DNA of 38,840 bases from Actinomycetota bacterium (GTDB taxonomy: Bacteria; Actinomycetota; Acidimicrobiia; Acidimicrobiales; Ilumatobacteraceae), in assembly GCA_016870215.1 (NCBI GenBank), contig VGCD01000017.1, positions 1 through 38,840 on the forward strand, read 5' to 3'. The stretch's first letter is position 1. Every line of letters begins with the position of its first letter. Shown here in pieces: positions 20,378 through 27,769 of the stretch. The position numbers were made by a program, and so were the translations under genes. The notes under the pieces are model-generated. The model did no database searches. It saw only the letters and a list, made by a program, of their open reading frames with translations, and was not told the DNA's origin.

Positions 20378-20442
20378 TCACAGTCTTACCCAGTGGGAGG
20401 GTGTCCAAGCCCCCCAAAACATCCAATCTGCGGGGAGAAAAA

Positions 20443-21774
20443 ATGCAGAAGAAAACCGGACGTCGCGTTGCGGCGCTCATCGTGGGTCTTGGCCTTGTGG
20501 CCGCTTCCTGTGGTGGCGATGACAGCTCGACCGACACAACTGCAGCATCAGATACGACTGCTGCAGCATCAACATCCAATGGCGAACTCGCGGGCATGAA
20601 GGGCACCACTCCGTTGGTGGAACTTTCCCAAGAGTTCAAGGACCGTCTCCTTGAGGTCGATCCTGCACTGACTGACTACTCATACGCAGCCGAGACATAC
20701 GACTCGGTCACGGTGATTGCTCTTGCAGTGGAGAAGGCACAAGACGACGGCATTGCCTATGCCAACGAGATCAACGGCATTACGCGCGACGGTGAAAAGT
20801 GCACCGACTTCGCGACATGTGCTGCTCTCATCAAAGAAGGTAAGGACGTCGACTATGACGGCGTTTCTGGACCACTCGAGTTCTCCGGTAACGGCGAGCC
20901 CCTCAAGGCTTCCTACGGCGTTCTTCAGTTCGGTGCAGACAACCGTCTCGACGACAGCCTCACCACATACATCGAAGCAGCAGCTCCTGCTGATGCAGAC
21001 GTCGCCCCGATCCCTGCTGAGGGTGATCGCAAGGGTGATGGCGTTCTGACCATCGGTTCGATCCTGCCGCAGACTGGCTCACTCGCCTTCCTCGGACCAC
21101 CGGAATTCGCTGGTTTCGACCTCGCCATCAAGGACATCAATGCTGCTGGTGGCGTGCTGGGTAAGGACGTTGTGGGTATCAAGGGTGACTCTGGTGATGC
21201 CACCACTGACACTGCATCGAAGACAGTTGACGCTCAGCTTTCGCAGAACGTCGACGCCATCATCGGTGCTGCGTCGTCTGGTGTGAGCCTCACCGTGATC
21301 GACAAGATCACGGCTGCTGGTGTCGTCCAGTTCTCGCCTGCGAACACGTCGAAGAAGCTCTCTGACTACGCCGACAAGGGTCTCTACTTCCGTAGCGCCC
21401 CATCGGACATCGTTCAGGGTGCAGTGTTGGCTGAAGTCATCAAGGGTGACGGCGCATCGAACGTGGCGATCATCGCTCGTAACGACGCATACGGCACCGG
21501 CTTGGCCGAAGACCTCGCGAAGAACCTGGAAGCAGGTGGCGCAAAGGTCGTCGTAACCAAGATCTATGACGAGAAGGCAACCGCATTCGACGCGGAAGTC
21601 GACGAGATCAAGGCCGCTGGCCCTGACGCAGTTGCAATTATCGGTTTCGATGAGACCTCCAAGATCCTCGCCACCATGGTGGAGAAGGGTGTTGGACCGA
21701 AGGCCATCAAGGTCTACGGATGCGACGGCAACATGGGTAACGCCCTTGGTGAGAACTTCGACGCAGGTAAGTGA
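20443..21774 (+). CDS. Branched-chain amino acid ABC transporter substrate-binding lipoprotein, circularly permuted
   Basis: A 443-residue secreted lipoprotein with lipobox VAASC (Cys23) and a Thr/Asp/Ala-rich tether. A good ribosome binding site (GGGGAG, 20432-20437) precedes the ATG. The order of the family segments is abnormal. Residues 47-178 look like the C-terminal third of a type I LIV-binding protein (YAAETYDSVTVIALAVEKA, then DYDGVSGPLEFSGNGEP, then SYGVLQF). A linker rich in Ala, Asp and Pro follows (about 179-198). Residues 199-443 look like the N-terminal two thirds (LTIGSILPQTGSLAFLGPP, INAAGGVLGK, IIGAASSGVS, FSPANTSKKLS, RNDAYGTGLAEDL, VKVYGCDGNM-type end). The protein stops where a normal one would continue into the residue-47 segment. 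It has its own promoter-like sequence and terminator, so it looks like a functional gene. Confidence 0.85.
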   Translation: MQKKTGRRVAALIVGLGLVAASCGGDDSSTDTTAASDTTAAASTSNGELAGMKGTTPLVELSQEFKDRLLEVDPALTDYSYAAETYDSVTVIALAVEKAQDDGIAYANEINGITRDGEKCTDFATCAALIKEGKDVDYDGVSGPLEFSGNGEPLKASYGVLQFGADNRLDDSLTTYIEAAAPADADVAPIPAEGDRKGDGVLTIGSILPQTGSLAFLGPPEFAGFDLAIKDINAAGGVLGKDVVGIKGDSGDATTDTASKTVDAQLSQNVDAIIGAASSGVSLTVIDKITAAGVVQFSPANTSKKLSDYADKGLYFRSAPSDIVQGAVLAEVIKGDGASNVAIIARNDAYGTGLAEDLAKNLEAGGAKVVVTKIYDEKATAFDAEVDEIKAAGPDAVAIIGFDETSKILATMVEKGVGPKAIKVYGCDGNMGNALGENFDAGK

Positions 21775-21807
21775 TTACCCGCTAGTCGAATCTCATTCGA
21801 TCAACGG

Positions 21808-21840
21808 AAAGGCCCGGGCGAAAGCCCGGGCCTTTCTTCA
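21808..21840 (+). terminator. Strong rho-independent terminator after the binding protein gene
   Basis: A perfect 12-bp stem (AAAGGCCCGGGC, 21808-21819, pairing with 21824-21835) is capped by a GAAA tetraloop and followed by a short T-rich tail (TTTCTTC). It starts 33 nt after the stop codon at 21774. Read from the other strand it is followed by CCTTTCC, so it may also serve, less efficiently, the convergent operon whose last gene ends at 21880. Confidence 0.85.
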
Positions 21841-21879: not shown

Positions 21880-22845
21880 TCAGTCAATGATCAGCTCGTA
21901 GGTGACAGAGCGTCTTGCAACGGCGTAACCGAGGCGCTCATACACCGACACCGCGCCGGTCGGGTTGTCGCTATCAACATACAACCCTGCATGGGTGAGG
22001 CCGGCGCGTCCATACGTCTGAACGACCTGAGAGATGAGAGTCGACGCAACTCCCCGACCGCGCCATTCACGCACAGTCGCCACTTTGTGAACCCATCCCA
22101 CTCTCTCGACAACAGCACCGTTGTCGATGTCATCATCTGGAAATCGATGGGTTAGTACCAGCCCGATAACGACACCGTTCTCATCGAGCGCAACGAGCGA
22201 AAGGTCGCGGCGTGTTGCCACACCGGTGGTGAGTTGCGACCACCGCAATTCATCATCTGGCGCTGAGCCCCAATGATCGGCGAATGCTTCGTTCTTCACA
22301 CGTCGAAGCTCGCGGTCGTCAGCAGCATCCCATTCGATGACCGTGACACCTTCAGGTACAGGAACTATTGGCACGTCACTGAGCGGCGTACGCATTTCTG
22401 CAAACCAACGAATTGGGGTCATTCCTAAGTTGGTGAATATTCGTTGAGCGTCTGCGTCGTATTCAGGCGCATCGGCGCGCACGATCTTTCGGCCCACAAC
22501 TGGCCCCATGCGTAGCTTCTGTTCAGCTCGCCTCGCACCCCATGCAGACAGCTCTGTACCGACACCACGTGAGAGAAACTGTGGGTGCACACGGGCGAAC
22601 ACATAGCAACGTTGATCGTGAGTTTCACTGGCGAGGTGGTATGTATACACGTAGCCCACCGCACAACCATCCACGAGTGCGATGCAAATATCGAACTCAC
22701 GAAACACGAGTGGCTCAATGAACTCTTCGTCGAACAATTCGACTGTGTCCACAATTGGAATTCCGAAGTGCTCATTCCAAGCAGTTGAAATCGCTGCGAT
22801 TGATGCGAGGTCACCTTCTGCAAATGGTCGAAGCTCGACCGTCAT
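21880..22845 (-). CDS. Tandem GNAT acetyltransferase (mycothiol synthase-like architecture)
   Basis: A 321-residue protein with two GNAT domains. The N-terminal copy (about 1-150) is degenerate around the acetyl-CoA loop (HPQFLSRGVGTELSAWG). The C-terminal copy has a clear motif: HKVATVREWRGRGVASTLIS with R-G-R-G-V-A, then LYVDSDNPTGAVSVYERLGYAV, the N-P-x-x-x-x-x-Y-x-x-L-G-Y/F pattern. Mycothiol synthase (MshD) has this double arrangement and similar length, so MshD is one possibility, but many uncharacterised actinobacterial tandem GNATs look alike. It is the last gene of the liv operon, 11 nt after livF; its substrate is unknown. Confidence 0.8.
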   Translation of the reverse strand: MTVELRPFAEGDLASIAAISTAWNEHFGIPIVDTVELFDEEFIEPLVFREFDICIALVDGCAVGYVYTYHLASETHDQRCYVFARVHPQFLSRGVGTELSAWGARRAEQKLRMGPVVGRKIVRADAPEYDADAQRIFTNLGMTPIRWFAEMRTPLSDVPIVPVPEGVTVIEWDAADDRELRRVKNEAFADHWGSAPDDELRWSQLTTGVATRRDLSLVALDENGVVIGLVLTHRFPDDDIDNGAVVERVGWVHKVATVREWRGRGVASTLISQVVQTYGRAGLTHAGLYVDSDNPTGAVSVYERLGYAVARRSVTYELIID

Positions 22846-22856
22846 GTTGCGCTGCC

Positions 22857-23591
22857 TCAGTTTCGAGAAGACTTGGCGAGAGTGCCGAGGTACAACTCGA
22901 TGACCTTCGGGTCTTTCAGCAACTCACGACCGGTGCCGGTGTAGGCATTGCGGCCCTGGTCAAGCACGTATCCACGGTCAACCACTTGCAAACACCTATT
23001 GGCGTTTTGCTCCACCATGAGAATGGCAACACCCGACTCATTGATTTTCTTGCACTGAATGAACACTTGGTCTTGAAGTGCTGGCGACAGACCGGCCGAG
23101 GGTTCATCGAGCAGCAACACGGTGGGCTTCAACATGAGCGCACGACCCATGGCCACCATCTGACGTTCACCGCCAGAGAGCGAGCCTGCACGCTGATCAA
23201 TGCGCTCGCCGAGACGAGGGAACATCTCGACCGCATAATCGAGTCGTTCGTCCAGCATGTCGGGACACAAGAAGCACCCCATCTCGAGGTTTTCGCGAAC
23301 GGTCAACGAGGGGAACACATTGCGAGTTTGAGGCACAAAGCCCACACCACGGGCAACGAGCTCATATGGCTTCATTCCGGTGATCTCTTCACCGTTCAGC
23401 TTCACATGCCCGCTGCGAATGTTCACCAGACCGAGCACTGCTTTCAGAAGCGTGGACTTGCCAGCACCGTTGGGGCCGATGATGCCAACGAACTCACCAG
23501 CAGCGACAGTGAGGTCACAACCATTGAGAATGTTCACTTCGGCGACATAGCCGGCAATGACGTTTTCGACATCGATGACGTTCGCAGCCAT
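22857..23591 (-). CDS. livF: Branched-chain amino acid ABC transporter ATP-binding protein LivF
   Basis: A 244-residue ATPase of the LIV importer. Walker A GPNGAGKST is near residue 37, followed by the Q-loop FVPQTRNVFPSLTV, which has the typical LivF wording, the signature SLSGGERQMVAMGRALM, Walker B VLLLDEPSAGLSP and the switch histidine position occupied by VEQN (the LivF-specific E-Q-N in place of T-H-D). The C-terminus has LLKDPKVIELYLG, the conserved LivF tail. The start overlaps the livG stop by 1 nt (TGATG). The GNAT gene follows 11 nt downstream. Confidence 0.95.
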   Translation of the reverse strand: MAANVIDVENVIAGYVAEVNILNGCDLTVAAGEFVGIIGPNGAGKSTLLKAVLGLVNIRSGHVKLNGEEITGMKPYELVARGVGFVPQTRNVFPSLTVRENLEMGCFLCPDMLDERLDYAVEMFPRLGERIDQRAGSLSGGERQMVAMGRALMLKPTVLLLDEPSAGLSPALQDQVFIQCKKINESGVAILMVEQNANRCLQVVDRGYVLDQGRNAYTGTGRELLKDPKVIELYLGTLAKSSRN

Positions 23592-24421
23592 CAGCTACCT
23601 CCCAGATCTGAGTCATGGTGGGCGCCAAGGTAAGCGTCGATGACCGCCTGATTGGATCCGATGTCGTCTGACGTGCCTTCAGCAATGACGACACCTTCGG
23701 CCATCACGATGATCCAATCACTGATCTCGCGCACCATGTCCATGTCGTGTTCGACGAAGAGCACCGTGCGACCTTCATTACGCAGTCCTTTGATGTGTTC
23801 GAGCAAGCTCTGTTTGAGAGCAGGGTTGACACCCGCCATCGGCTCATCGAGCATCACCATTTCTGGTTCCACCATCAACGCACGCGCCATCTCCAGCAAC
23901 TTGCGCTGACCTCCAGAGAGACCACCTGCAAGTTCATCGCGCATGTGAGCAAGATTGAACCGTGTTAGAAGTTCTTCGGCCCGAGCGGTGATTTCTGCCT
24001 CCTGTGCACGCCACAGCGGAGAAAACAATCCGCGGAAGATGTTTTCGCCCTTCTGGTGTGCGGCTCCGAGGCGCATGTTTTCGATGACACTCATTCGGGA
24101 AAGCGCTTTGGTGAGCTGAAATGTGCGCACCATGCCAAGTCGAGCGACTTTGTGTGCAGCCATTCCATCGAGGCGTTGACTATTGAACACCGAGGTTCCG
24201 TGATCGGGAGAGTCGAACCCAGTGAGCAGGTTGAAAAACGTGGTTTTCCCAGCACCGTTCGGACCGATGAGAGCGGTGATCTTGTTACGCGGCACTTCGA
24301 CATGGTCGACATTGACCGCCACGAGGCCACCGAAGGCACGACGGACTCCGTCGACGACGAGAATTGCGTCATCTTTTTTCGAACCAGGAACAGGCTGATA
24401 CGACGCGGTGTTAGCGGACAT
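23591..24421 (-). CDS. livG: Branched-chain amino acid ABC transporter ATP-binding protein LivG
   Basis: A 276-residue ATPase paired with LivF. It has an N-terminal tail of about 20 residues before the ABC fold, then VRRAFGGLVAVNVDHVEV, Walker A GPNGAGKTT, the LivG-specific segment LTGFDSPDHG, RTFQLTKALSRMSV, an inserted helical region around residues 110-145, the signature LSGGQRKLLEMARALM, Walker B MVMLDEPMAGVNP, and the switch His in LFVEHDMDMV. ATG 24421 overlaps the last 11 nt of livM; the frame also runs to 24469 but inside livM. It forms a heterodimer with LivF under LivH-LivM. Confidence 0.95.
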   Translation of the reverse strand: MSANTASYQPVPGSKKDDAILVVDGVRRAFGGLVAVNVDHVEVPRNKITALIGPNGAGKTTFFNLLTGFDSPDHGTSVFNSQRLDGMAAHKVARLGMVRTFQLTKALSRMSVIENMRLGAAHQKGENIFRGLFSPLWRAQEAEITARAEELLTRFNLAHMRDELAGGLSGGQRKLLEMARALMVEPEMVMLDEPMAGVNPALKQSLLEHIKGLRNEGRTVLFVEHDMDMVREISDWIIVMAEGVVIAEGTSDDIGSNQAVIDAYLGAHHDSDLGGS

Positions 24422-25421
24422 CGAAGGCCTGCTCTCGCTTGTCACCGAAGATGCCTTGTGGCCGCACAATCACAAGAATTGCAAGCGCAAGACCAGCCAC
24501 GATGAAACGAACCTGTGAGAAGTTGTTCTCGTCCACAATCCACTCAGGAAGCAGCGGGGTTGGATCTGTCGGAGTTGTTCGCGTTGCCTGCTGCAACGTG
24601 ATGTCAACAAACTGGATAACGAAGAGGAAGATCATCGTTCCGATGACAGGACCCTTCGCACGCGCGATGCCACCCAAGATGATGATGGTGTAAGCGAAGA
24701 ATGTGAACGTGGTGGAAAAGTCCTGTGGCTGCGAGGACTGCTTATCGAGCACCAACCACATACCGCCGAGCGCCCCGACGAAACCACCAATAATCAGGCT
24801 CTGCATCTTGTACGCGAAGATGTTCTTACCGAGGCTGCGCGCAGCGTCTTCATCTTCGCGAATGCTCTTCAACACTCGGCCCCATGGGCTTCGCATCAAG
24901 GCCCAGATTCCGGTCGACACCAGCGCCACGAGAATCCAACCGGTCACCAAGAGCCACAGTCGGTAACCATCGACCTTCTGCGCCCACAGCGTGATGCCAT
25001 CGTCGGGGAACGGGTTGATGTTCTCCATGAAGCGGGTGAAACCTTGGAGACCGTCATTTCCGCCTGTGAGCCAAGTGAATCGCACTGAGTTCATGAACAA
25101 TCGAATGATTTCAGCCACGGCAATGGTGACGATGGCCAAGTAATCAGCTCGCAATCGCAGCGTCGGTATGCCGAGCAGCAACGCCAAAATCACGGACGAC
25201 ACGACAACCATCAACACTGCGAGCGGCCACGGCCAGTCATAGCGGCTGATCGGTATCGACAGTGAATACGCACCGATTGCAGCAAACCCGGCCTGACCGA
25301 AGTTCAGAAGGCCGGTGTAACCGAAGTGCACATTGAGCCCCGATGCCACAAGGATGTAGGCCACCGCGTTGGCACTAATGGCGGTGTAGAAGGAGTTCGA
25401 GAGAATGAGGTCCCACTTCAT
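24411..25421 (-). CDS. livM: Branched-chain amino acid ABC transporter permease LivM
   Basis: A 336-residue permease with eight to ten helices. It carries the LivM signatures LNVHFGYTGLLNFGQAGFAAIGAY (first helix and loop, quoted here because G-Y-x-G-x-x-N-F-G-Q is diagnostic), LRLRADYLAIVTIAVAEIIR, the coupling loop SIREDEDAARSLGKNIFAYK, and FAYTIIILGGIARAKGPVIG. The C-terminus GIFGDKREQAF is standard for the family. Its ATG overlaps the livH stop by 4 nt (ATGA) and its stop overlaps livG by 11 nt, so stoichiometric co-translation is expected. Substrate could be branched-chain amino acids, amides or urea; the family assignment is firm while the ligand is not. Confidence 0.95.
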   Translation of the reverse strand: MKWDLILSNSFYTAISANAVAYILVASGLNVHFGYTGLLNFGQAGFAAIGAYSLSIPISRYDWPWPLAVLMVVVSSVILALLLGIPTLRLRADYLAIVTIAVAEIIRLFMNSVRFTWLTGGNDGLQGFTRFMENINPFPDDGITLWAQKVDGYRLWLLVTGWILVALVSTGIWALMRSPWGRVLKSIREDEDAARSLGKNIFAYKMQSLIIGGFVGALGGMWLVLDKQSSQPQDFSTTFTFFAYTIIILGGIARAKGPVIGTMIFLFVIQFVDITLQQATRTTPTDPTPLLPEWIVDENNFSQVRFIVAGLALAILVIVRPQGIFGDKREQAFDVR

Positions 25422-26764
25422 CCGATGCGCTCCTTTCGTCCGAGGAATCCCTGTGGTCGAACCAGCAAGATGACGACGAGTGCAATGAGTGCGCCCAGGG
25501 TCTTCAACTCAACGACGTTCGGGAAGAACCACGTCCACAGTTCGGTGAACATGCCCACAACGAAGGCACCGAGCAATGCACCAAACGGGTTACCAAGCCC
25601 ACCAACTGTGATAGCGGCAAACATGAGGAGCAACAAGATGTTGCCCATGTCCCACTGAACGCCACTTGCCGCACCGAGCATGACACCACCAATACCTGCC
25701 AAAGCGCCTCCGACGAGCCACACGGTGAGAATGATGCGGTTGGTGTTGATACCGGTTGCTGAAGCGAGATCTGGGTTGTCAGACACTGCGCGAATTGCTT
25801 TGCCGAGCCGTGCTCGGAGCAGGAACATGGAGATTCCGACGACCCCGACCGCCGAGATGATCATGATGCCAAGGTCACGCGGCGTGATTCCGAAAGGTCC
25901 GAAGTCGATCTCTGGGTCACCCACGTATTGGCGGTAACGGCGGTTACGCCCACCGAAGAAGAACAAGTACACGTACCGAATGGCAATTGCCAAACCAATA
26001 GACACGATCATCATCGATGTGAGGCTGGTGCCTCGGCGGCGCAGCGGGCGCCACAGTTGGCGTTCGAACGCACCAGCCATGAGAGCGGCAGCCGCGATAC
26101 CGAACGGAGCAGCAATCAGAACATGAAGCTCAGGCCCGTTCTGATTCAACCAGAACACGACAATTGCCGCAATCGAGACAATCTCACCGTGGGCAAAGTT
26201 TGTGAGACCAGTTGTTCCATAGATCAGCGACAACCCGATGGCACACATGGCGATGATGAGGCTGTACTTGATTCCGTTCACGATGGTCTGAGGCAACAAT
26301 TCCCAGCGGTTGATCACCGCTCGCTTGGCATCACCGACAAAGAAGTTCACCGACTTTGCGCCAGTGCCGATGGTGACACCGGACGAGAAATTGACCGAGA
26401 TGGTGGTTGGCGACTCGTCGCTCGCTTCGACTCCCTTCGGAAGACTCGCAACATCGAGAGTGACCTCGTACTCGCCTTCCTTTGGAACCTTTAAAGACAC
26501 TTTGCCTGTCGAATCAGTGGTGCCCTCTGCAGTTCCGGCCGTGCCGACGGCTTTGACGAGCGCTCCTGCAACTGGAATCTTCTCGACGCCGTCGTCGGTC
26601 TGCTTCTGTTCCGTCACTGAGGCGACAATCTCGCCGTCGTCAGTAGCTGCAGAGACCGAGGAACCGAACATGGGCGCGATGAATGACAGCCCAACAATGG
26701 CCAAGAGCGACATCCGCATGACACGGCGCACTGTCACTTGTCTTGCGTCGACTTGTGTCCCCAT
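25418..26764 (-). CDS. livH: Branched-chain amino acid ABC transporter permease LivH with N-terminal extracytoplasmic Ig/transthyretin-like domain
   Basis: A 448-residue protein, about 150 residues longer than an ordinary LivH. Residues 1-40 look like a signal peptide (basic start, hydrophobic run LLAIVGLSFIAPMF, and a likely cleavage after VSA). Residues 42-145 form a beta-rich domain with VAGALVKAVGTAGTAEGTTDSTGKVSLKVP and EGEYEVTLDV, the pattern of carboxypeptidase-regulatory or Cna-B-like folds in which a D-x-x-G turn joins strands. From about 155 the permease begins: GLSLIYGTTGLTNFAHGEIV is the LivH hallmark, then a coupling loop GKAIRAVSDNPDLASATGIN, and GVMLGAASGVQWDMG. ATG 26764 was chosen as first in a coherent signal peptide; the frame opens at 26902 but those residues overlap the divergent gene. 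Confidence 0.92.
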   Translation of the reverse strand: MGTQVDARQVTVRRVMRMSLLAIVGLSFIAPMFGSSVSAATDDGEIVASVTEQKQTDDGVEKIPVAGALVKAVGTAGTAEGTTDSTGKVSLKVPKEGEYEVTLDVASLPKGVEASDESPTTISVNFSSGVTIGTGAKSVNFFVGDAKRAVINRWELLPQTIVNGIKYSLIIAMCAIGLSLIYGTTGLTNFAHGEIVSIAAIVVFWLNQNGPELHVLIAAPFGIAAAALMAGAFERQLWRPLRRRGTSLTSMMIVSIGLAIAIRYVYLFFFGGRNRRYRQYVGDPEIDFGPFGITPRDLGIMIISAVGVVGISMFLLRARLGKAIRAVSDNPDLASATGINTNRIILTVWLVGGALAGIGGVMLGAASGVQWDMGNILLLLMFAAITVGGLGNPFGALLGAFVVGMFTELWTWFFPNVVELKTLGALIALVVILLVRPQGFLGRKERIG

Positions 26765-26839
26765 GCACACCCTTGTTGCTGCAGGCTCCCCTGCTAGACA
26801 GAAGTGGCCCGAAAGTTTTTCCAACACTAGTGCCGAACC

Positions 26840-27769
26840 ATGCCCACTCCTAAGGCCCCCGCCGCATTCACGAAGACACCTGGCCGTAGCCTTTTTGGTC
26901 ATCCGGCGCTGGGCGTGGTGGCAGCCTCGGTGCTCTTCGGAACCTCCGGCACTGCTCGGTCCTTTGCCCCAGACAGCGCCACTTCGCTCTCAGTGGCTGG
27001 TGTGCGGCTCATGATCGGAGCCGTGCCGCTACTCCTTGTTGGCTACCTCAAGGAGAAGACCAATCGACCGAGTCTTCGTGCCGAAGCCGTGGCGGCCGGA
27101 GGGGCGATGATGCTCTTCCAGGTCTGCTTTTTCAGTGCGATGGAGAACTCTGGTGTCGCTGTCGGAACCATGCTCACGATTGGAAGTGGTCCGATCATTG
27201 CCGCCGGCATCGACCTTGTCACCGGTCGCCGTCCGTCGTCACGAGTGGTTGGTGCACTCGTCTTGGCTCTTGCCGGTCTGGCGATGCTCGTGCTCGGATC
27301 TCCACCAGAGGGCGACACAAGCTTCTCGATTGTCGGAGTGCTCTTCGGAATCGGTGCAGGTGCCAGTTACGCCATCTACACACACTTGTGCAAGCGGCTC
27401 CTCGATCACGGCTGGAGTGGCACATGGACCATGGCATGGACATTCACGGTGAGCGCAATCTGTTCAGTCGTACTCGTCATGCCTTCTTCGCTTGAGTGGT
27501 TGTCAACTCCGAGTGGTTGGTTCACCATCATTTATCTCGGACTCGCGACGATCTCTATTGCGTATCTTCTTTACGCACATTCATTGTCGCGACTCACTGG
27601 CTCGATGGTTGTGACCCTCACACTTGTGGAACCAGTGACTGCAACAACACTTGGCGCTCTCGTACTGAACGAGAACATTCGACCTATCAGTTGGATTGGC
27701 GCAGCGATTGTCCTAGCCGCACTCGTATTCGTTGGTACAACGACTGAAGAAGACGTCCCACTCACCTAA
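26840..27769 (+). CDS. EamA/DMT family transporter
   Basis: A 309-residue ten-helix transporter made of two EamA repeats. The first helix LGVVAASVLFGTSGTARSFAP, the AGVRLMIGAVPLLLVG segment and AMENSGVAVGTMLTIGSGPIIAA belong to the N-terminal repeat. The C-terminal repeat starts around GVLFGIGAGASYAIYTHLCKRLL and ends VVTLTLVEPVTATTLGALVLNENI, the P-V-x-x-x-x-G-x-x-x-L-x-E signature, followed by the final helix. It probably exports a small metabolite. It is divergent from livH with 75 bp between start codons; no Shine-Dalgarno sequence precedes ATG 26840, suggesting a leaderless or weakly translated message. Confidence 0.9.
   Translation: MPTPKAPAAFTKTPGRSLFGHPALGVVAASVLFGTSGTARSFAPDSATSLSVAGVRLMIGAVPLLLVGYLKEKTNRPSLRAEAVAAGGAMMLFQVCFFSAMENSGVAVGTMLTIGSGPIIAAGIDLVTGRRPSSRVVGALVLALAGLAMLVLGSPPEGDTSFSIVGVLFGIGAGASYAIYTHLCKRLLDHGWSGTWTMAWTFTVSAICSVVLVMPSSLEWLSTPSGWFTIIYLGLATISIAYLLYAHSLSRLTGSMVVTLTLVEPVTATTLGALVLNENIRPISWIGAAIVLAALVFVGTTTEEDVPLT

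Follow-up and report, generated by a model that had tools for sequence, protein, structure and literature searches.

A conserved circular permutation of a LIV-type solute-binding lipoprotein in Actinomycetota

Natural circular permutation of a substrate-binding protein is already known from a sugar-binding relative of the proteins considered here. TpMglB-2 (Tp0684), of the glucose/galactose family, is a lipoprotein classed as circularly permuted ‘Type Ic / Cluster Bc’, its first three N-lobe strands having moved to the C-terminus, and its authors report that the chain crosses between the lobes a fourth time, that the protein binds glucose and that it changes conformation; for the permuted part they give 13% identity, and it is barely recognisable in sequence (PMC4990184). 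They also raised permutation as a possible adaptation to tethering, an idea that by analogy would apply to permuted LIV-type proteins also. Among the open-access matches listed, this was the nearest published precedent found, and in their titles and the starts of their abstracts no permuted LIV-type protein was named. As to how such an order can arise, a review describes for saposin/swaposin and DNA methyltransferases a model in which a gene is duplicated, fused and then trimmed, a course that should leave intermediates (PMC3320104). Compared with those cases, an exported lipoprotein carries an additional constraint, since its signal must stay ahead of whatever segment has been moved.

Is natural permutation in this fold a matter of sugar-binding proteins alone? 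The protein described here is of the LIV type, probably for amino acids, and its permuted relatives occur in many actinobacteria. Its gene lies in the window, by which is meant the whole stretch of 38,840 nucleotides that was analysed. The window protein is like the LIV/HAAT proteins (Peripla_BP_6; LivJ, LivK, Atu2422) in its sequence profile, in the fold predicted for it, in its lipoprotein signal and in having LivFGMH genes as neighbours, and it has residues that align with their putative pocket positions; from them it differs in having the order of its parts reversed, its tether at the other end of the fold and a linker between the old termini. Like TpMglB-2, it is a lipid-anchored type I binding protein in a naturally permuted form; however, the cut is elsewhere, with the last third of the chain moved to the N-terminus, and, in contrast to the 13% above, both parts keep 54–65% identity to the nearest ordinary relatives (L017, L018, L068). 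The binding-protein families matched in Pfam at E up to 10 were Peripla_BP_6, ANF_receptor and Peripla_BP_5 only, and by that search it is not a member of the MglB sugar-binding sequence family. The gene and its parts are as follows.

20432 to 20437, plus strand: GGGGAG, resembling a ribosome-binding site, 5 bases upstream of the ATG (sequence read)
20443 to 21774, plus strand: gene of the window protein, a lipoprotein reading frame of 443 residues
20443 to 20511, plus strand: lipoprotein signal peptide (residues 1–22) and lipobox Cys23 (translation, by eye; relatives start alike)
20512 to 20580, plus strand: tether, residues 24–46, probably disordered (AlphaFold2 pLDDT below 50 at residues 1–45)
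20581 to 20982, plus strand: first segment, residues 47–180, equivalent to the C-terminal third of LIV-type proteins (ANF_receptor 233–350; ordinary relatives place it second)
20983 to 21042, plus strand: linker, residues 181–200, connecting the former C- and N-termini (alignment; pLDDT 90 and 95)
21043 to 21771, plus strand: second segment, residues 201–443, equivalent to the N-terminal two thirds (Peripla_BP_6 2–226; LivJ 4gnr 8–233)
21772 to 21774, plus strand: stop codon and new C-terminus, soon past the CDGNMGN loop (translation)
21806 to 21837, no strand assigned: GC-rich hairpin in the gap between convergent genes, probably a shared terminator (RNA fold)

A sequence-only reading of this DNA had proposed the permutation from the Cys23 lipobox and the two transposed segments, and had taken an intact ribosome-binding site, signal and terminator as signs that the gene works. 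Translation bears out the coordinates, the lipobox and the segments, and the GGGGAG is in keeping with a ribosome-binding site. For the terminator there is a stable hairpin (folding energy −30.9 kcal/mol, z −6.5), though a simple terminator scan listed none there, probably because its T run is short. Within the linker R196, G198 and G200 are invariant in a 28-row alignment.

That the order is reversed can be seen from profile matches alone. Residues 202–428 align in Pfam to positions 2–226 of Peripla_BP_6 (PF13458; 126 bits against a curated cut-off of 31.7), and residues 49–163, when the first 187 residues were submitted alone, to positions 233–350 of ANF_receptor, so that aligned segment by segment both parts match and the earlier one in the profile comes later in the chain. 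Second matches in the PDB search are also reversed, residues 127–167 falling on LivK 2lbp 300–340 and residues 78–100 on 4mlc 282–304, both being weak and alone not significant. As had been predicted for unpermuted proteins, in ordinary relatives (L066–L069) the residue equivalent to 442 abuts that equivalent to 47.

A more general measure was obtained with an HMM of 12 unpermuted relatives against which every third cyclic rotation of a protein, taken from its first conserved segment, was scored. In native order the window protein scored 381 bits over 62% of the profile and in its best rotation 562 bits over 89%, which is not the outcome for segments in normal order; it is only after rotation that most of the profile is covered once. 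Rotation gained at least 104 bits in 27 of 28 permuted rows and at least 147.8 bits in all 10 rows of a second lineage (see below), i.e., at least 104 bits in 37 of the 38 pooled, where one protein is scored in both groups (as L128 among the 28 and as L160 in the second lineage); none of 56 ordinary rows gained more than 4.6 bits. The sole permuted row without a gain, L065, is truncated at a contig end. With the disordered tail retained, the match was split in two for several rows and the scan then told nothing about them (the window protein, one of these, went from 380.8 to 382.7 bits). The canonical linear order of LIV/HAAT proteins is therefore absent, but this reversal is the permutation itself and hence no bar to membership. 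There is a consequence for annotation, as in native order the best single family-profile match covers just ~60%.

Would a chain so rearranged be expected to fold? AlphaFold2 (28 sequences) places both segments in one confident fold, with mean pLDDT 85.7 and pTM 0.83, the sole stretch below 50 being residues 1–45, and blocks 181–190 and 191–200 of the linker averaging 90 and 95. For the ordinary protein L068, from Pseudonocardia sp. ICBG1293, the values are 82.2 and 0.80, and when the two models are compared by eye, all but one of the 27 helices and strands listed for the window protein can be paired in rotated order with elements of L068, the one unpaired being helix 304–308. Foldseek against solved structures gave LIV-type proteins as top matches of the window protein over part of its chain, with 227–260 columns aligned in 48 of the best 50 matches listed, and 288 and 303 columns (rmsd ~20) for two entries of an engineered LivJ sensor; for L068 it was 366–461 columns in 50 of the best 50 listed. 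A two-lobed type I fold is thus predicted, and its new termini presumably lie in lobe II, going by the anatomy of LIV proteins. A joining of two different domains is ruled out by the one confident predicted fold and the one profile covered once after rotation. The engineered LivJ sensor NeIle appears among both PDB and Foldseek matches.

This is not the isolated rearrangement of a single locus. Segment order was permuted in 33 of 57 loci, ordinary in 23 and in one (L091) the protein was a fragment; the permuted loci are mostly from Acidimicrobiia groups, with others labelled just Actinomycetota or bacterium. A collinear near-full-length match was present in 11 of 61 relatives’ genomes, a set whose assemblies partly overlap those of the 57 loci. 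Presence is patchy, nine of these 11 belonging to the window’s genus, of which 32 genomes, several of them incomplete, were covered; the permuted gene is also in 19 of 397 sampled genomes of its order, and in none of those 19 was an ordinary copy found beside it (E 1e-40; four candidates scored per genome). Ordinary relatives are found in the window’s own family and order, and further in Frankiales, Pseudonocardiaceae, Nocardioidaceae, Microbacteriaceae, Micrococcaceae and Streptosporangiaceae. The nearest, L017, is 65% identical in the longer segment and 61% in the shorter, followed by L018 (62 and 56%) and L068 (58 and 54%), identity falling to 46 and 35% in L083–L085 and lower still in more distant loci. 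In eight pairs with the closest relatives dN/dS was 0.06–0.16 (residues 47–443, simple counting), synonymous differences being large in six of the eight. Profile order, the rotation scan, the AlphaFold2 model, this dN/dS and the shared gene place now to be described support the reading that the window protein is a LIV-type binding protein whose circular permutation is real, conserved and under selection.

LivH, LivM, LivG and LivF partners are nearby (22857–26902), on the opposite strand.

21880 to 22845, minus strand: gene of a GNAT acetyltransferase, with the binding-protein gene on one side and LivF on the other
22857 to 23591, minus strand: LivF-like ATPase of a convergent LIV operon (Pfam ABC_tran; also near relatives)
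23591 to 24469, minus strand: LivG-like ATPase (Pfam ABC_tran, BCA_ABC_TP_C)
24411 to 25421, minus strand: LivM-like permease (Pfam BPD_transp_2)
25418 to 26902, minus strand: LivH-like permease with an extra N-terminal domain, likely start near 26719 (Pfam BPD_transp_2)

Of the 33 permuted loci 30 have a convergent LivF-like gene downstream, as do 20 of the 23 ordinary ones, and in the six without it, three of each kind, the contig ends within 1.1 kb. From this common location on the LivF side it would seem that the permuted gene took over the site of the ordinary one. Exceptions to the arrangement, among other loci, are ordinary L109 and L113, where a LivH-like gene is downstream on the same strand, and permuted L117 and L118, where the gene order differs and the binding-protein gene is divergent from LivH. 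The window shares the GNAT gene at this place with no locus searched other than those of its two nearest relatives. With permuted and nearest ordinary proteins so alike in both parts, in neighbouring lineages and beside the same type of convergent pump operon, the effects of tether and chain ends on binding, closure and delivery are directly testable.

How many times did this occur? There is, beyond anything in the sequence-only reading, a second permuted lineage, and there are two smaller permuted pairs. The first member of the second lineage, L128 (genome G619), came from a phylum search; of 101 genomes sampled in family f113, to which its relatives belong, 70 gave collinear matches, 79 in all. 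All 20 loci read from that family have the motif (R/H)LYGxDGN a short way past the lipobox and a C-terminus just ahead of the position equivalent to that motif in the window protein, i.e., the cut is ~25 residues earlier than in the main lineage. (A plasmid search with a second-lineage protein gave two partial matches.) One pair, L117 and L118 of genus g287, was found in 2 of 36 genomes in the order of G520. The other, the divergent L146 and L147, is from two family f19 genomes, each of which has a main-lineage copy also, and neither protein has a DGN near its C-terminus.

Trees were made from concatenated segments. From 165 units 147 were kept, with 12 frames lacking a full segment pair and exact duplicates left out, and from these 88 rows, with units shorter than 250 residues and near-duplicates of more than 80% identity left out; one reduced tree had 69 rows, 14 name groups (long-branch or tandem) having been left out, and in a further tree 17 name groups were left out, the f19 pair restored and L128 exchanged for 10 of the 20 f113 loci. 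The main permuted lineage is one clade (SH-aLRT 97 and 98). Several independent permutations, in the main lineage, family f113, genus g287 and the divergent f19 pair, have in our estimation somewhat below an even chance. Two trees require at least four changes of order, three of them forced by well-supported branches, the f113 cut differs in every locus read, and L117, with its different gene order, groups with ordinary L153 (SH-aLRT 98) or, in the other tree, with L153, L127 and L132 (SH-aLRT 95). However, two reduced trees need just three changes, both cut sites could stem from one fused ancestor that was trimmed differently, and AU tests reject no single permuted clade: p was 0.318 for the main lineage with L117, 0.606 with L128 (the likelihood being higher when these are constrained together), 0.419 with f113 and 0.119 for all permuted rows. 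The tests (p 0.12–0.61) thus leave the number of origins at one to four. A more far-reaching suggestion, which we offer as tentative and hold to be rather unlikely, is that in actinobacterial LIV-type proteins a single stretch of lobe II was opened on two or more independent occasions, at cut sites ~25 residues apart, and that each form was kept lineage-wide because a membrane-tethered binding protein works better with its lipid anchor on the second lobe than on the first.

With respect to the route, the sequence-only reading had favoured a tandem duplication followed by loss of the outer parts. An ordinary binding-protein gene would have been duplicated in tandem, in place, the copies would then have fused and their redundant ends been trimmed, with the old N- and C-termini becoming joined through a short linker and new ones opening past the CDGN loop, where the short helix that comes after it gives way to the next strand (in lobe II, going by LIV-protein anatomy). 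In ordinary relatives the stretch ...DGNMGNALGE...GMKGTTP... reads through unbroken, and in permuted proteins the linker leads from the former C-terminal end (DDSLTxY...) into GDGVLxIG, a sequence like the one that ordinary relatives have just ahead of the domain. That junction is as a head-to-tail fusion predicts and, together with adjacent copies and in-frame doubles elsewhere in the family, argues against the two other routes named as alternatives in the review (PMC3320104), gene fission with re-fusion in reverse and cut-and-paste of a segment inside the gene. These we regard as unlikely, even though the permuted branch yielded neither a fused intermediate nor one with redundant ends; a one-motif test detected no redundant ends in permuted proteins. 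Side-by-side double copies are present in L061, L078, L081, L088 and L092, and in-frame double proteins of order C-N-C-N in six genomes of genus g48 (L140–L145), five of them complete and the sixth truncated at the end of its locus. Such natural tandem-fused doubles, also additional to the sequence-only reading, are of the kind that the duplication route needs. The part of the proposal that fits is thus the linker and the existence of tandem and fused copies; what does not is their position, as L140–L145 are on a distant branch away from the permuted one, and so they demonstrate the existence of such fusions rather than the actual intermediate.

The doubles of L140–L143 are 818–828 residues from stop to stop with liv genes alongside, and L140–L145 adjoin one or two extra single copies. 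A different sort of composite is present at L154:1016-3712, where an ordinary binding protein shares an 899-residue frame with a long second half which by eye resembles another, different binding protein, Pfam finding two Peripla_BP_6 stretches.

What does the permuted protein do? We think it highly probable that it is a working lipid-anchored binding protein of a LIV/HAAT-type ABC importer, its chain circularly permuted through duplication, with the old termini linked and new ones opened, and that it serves the convergent pump. The protein would still fold as a two-lobed clamp, its lipid tether shifted from the first lobe to the second, and would hand bound solute to the convergent LivFGMH pump. 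S279, A300, T302 and Y350 align with LivK 79, 100, 102 and 150 in the PDB search alignment, and D428 with a DG of LivJ 4gnr, all of them candidate positions of amino-acid contacts. If the clamp is retained, the putative ligand is most likely an amino acid or a solute of similar kind. Were the protein to sense or scavenge solutes instead of supplying the adjacent pump, this might explain why the second lineage lacks nearby liv genes in 9 of 9 loci (tblastn, 10–13.5 kb), and why in one permuted copy the binding protein follows, as part of a fusion, an Hsp70-like domain and a likely membrane helix. For the window protein we consider that role very unlikely, since the main-lineage gene stays beside LivF-type genes at nearly every locus, as counted above, and no second close copy was seen in the window’s genome, the five other matches (E 0.001) being short and weak. 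The fused copy just mentioned (L061:1031-4000, from the genome of L159) is a second permuted binding protein, the Hsp70-like domain being identified by Pfam and the hydrophobic stretch taken by eye as a membrane helix.

An assembly artefact or decaying pseudogene, for which it could be said that the draft genome is in 55 contigs, the window being just one of them, is rejected with near certainty by collinear matches across many separate assemblies, for the second lineage in single-contig genomes, by the low dN/dS and by the intact reading frame and signal.

The LivH-like permease has a feature of its own. In its 433-aa reading BPD_transp_2 is at residues 146–417, preceded by an extra domain of ~110 residues that looks exported and is weakly carboxypeptidase-regulatory-like (CarboxypepD_reg at 47–88, below the Pfam cut-off). 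With the window’s own copy of this domain as tblastn query, matches were found in 16 of the 33 permuted loci and 1 of the 23 ordinary ones (L080), some loci ending before LivH.
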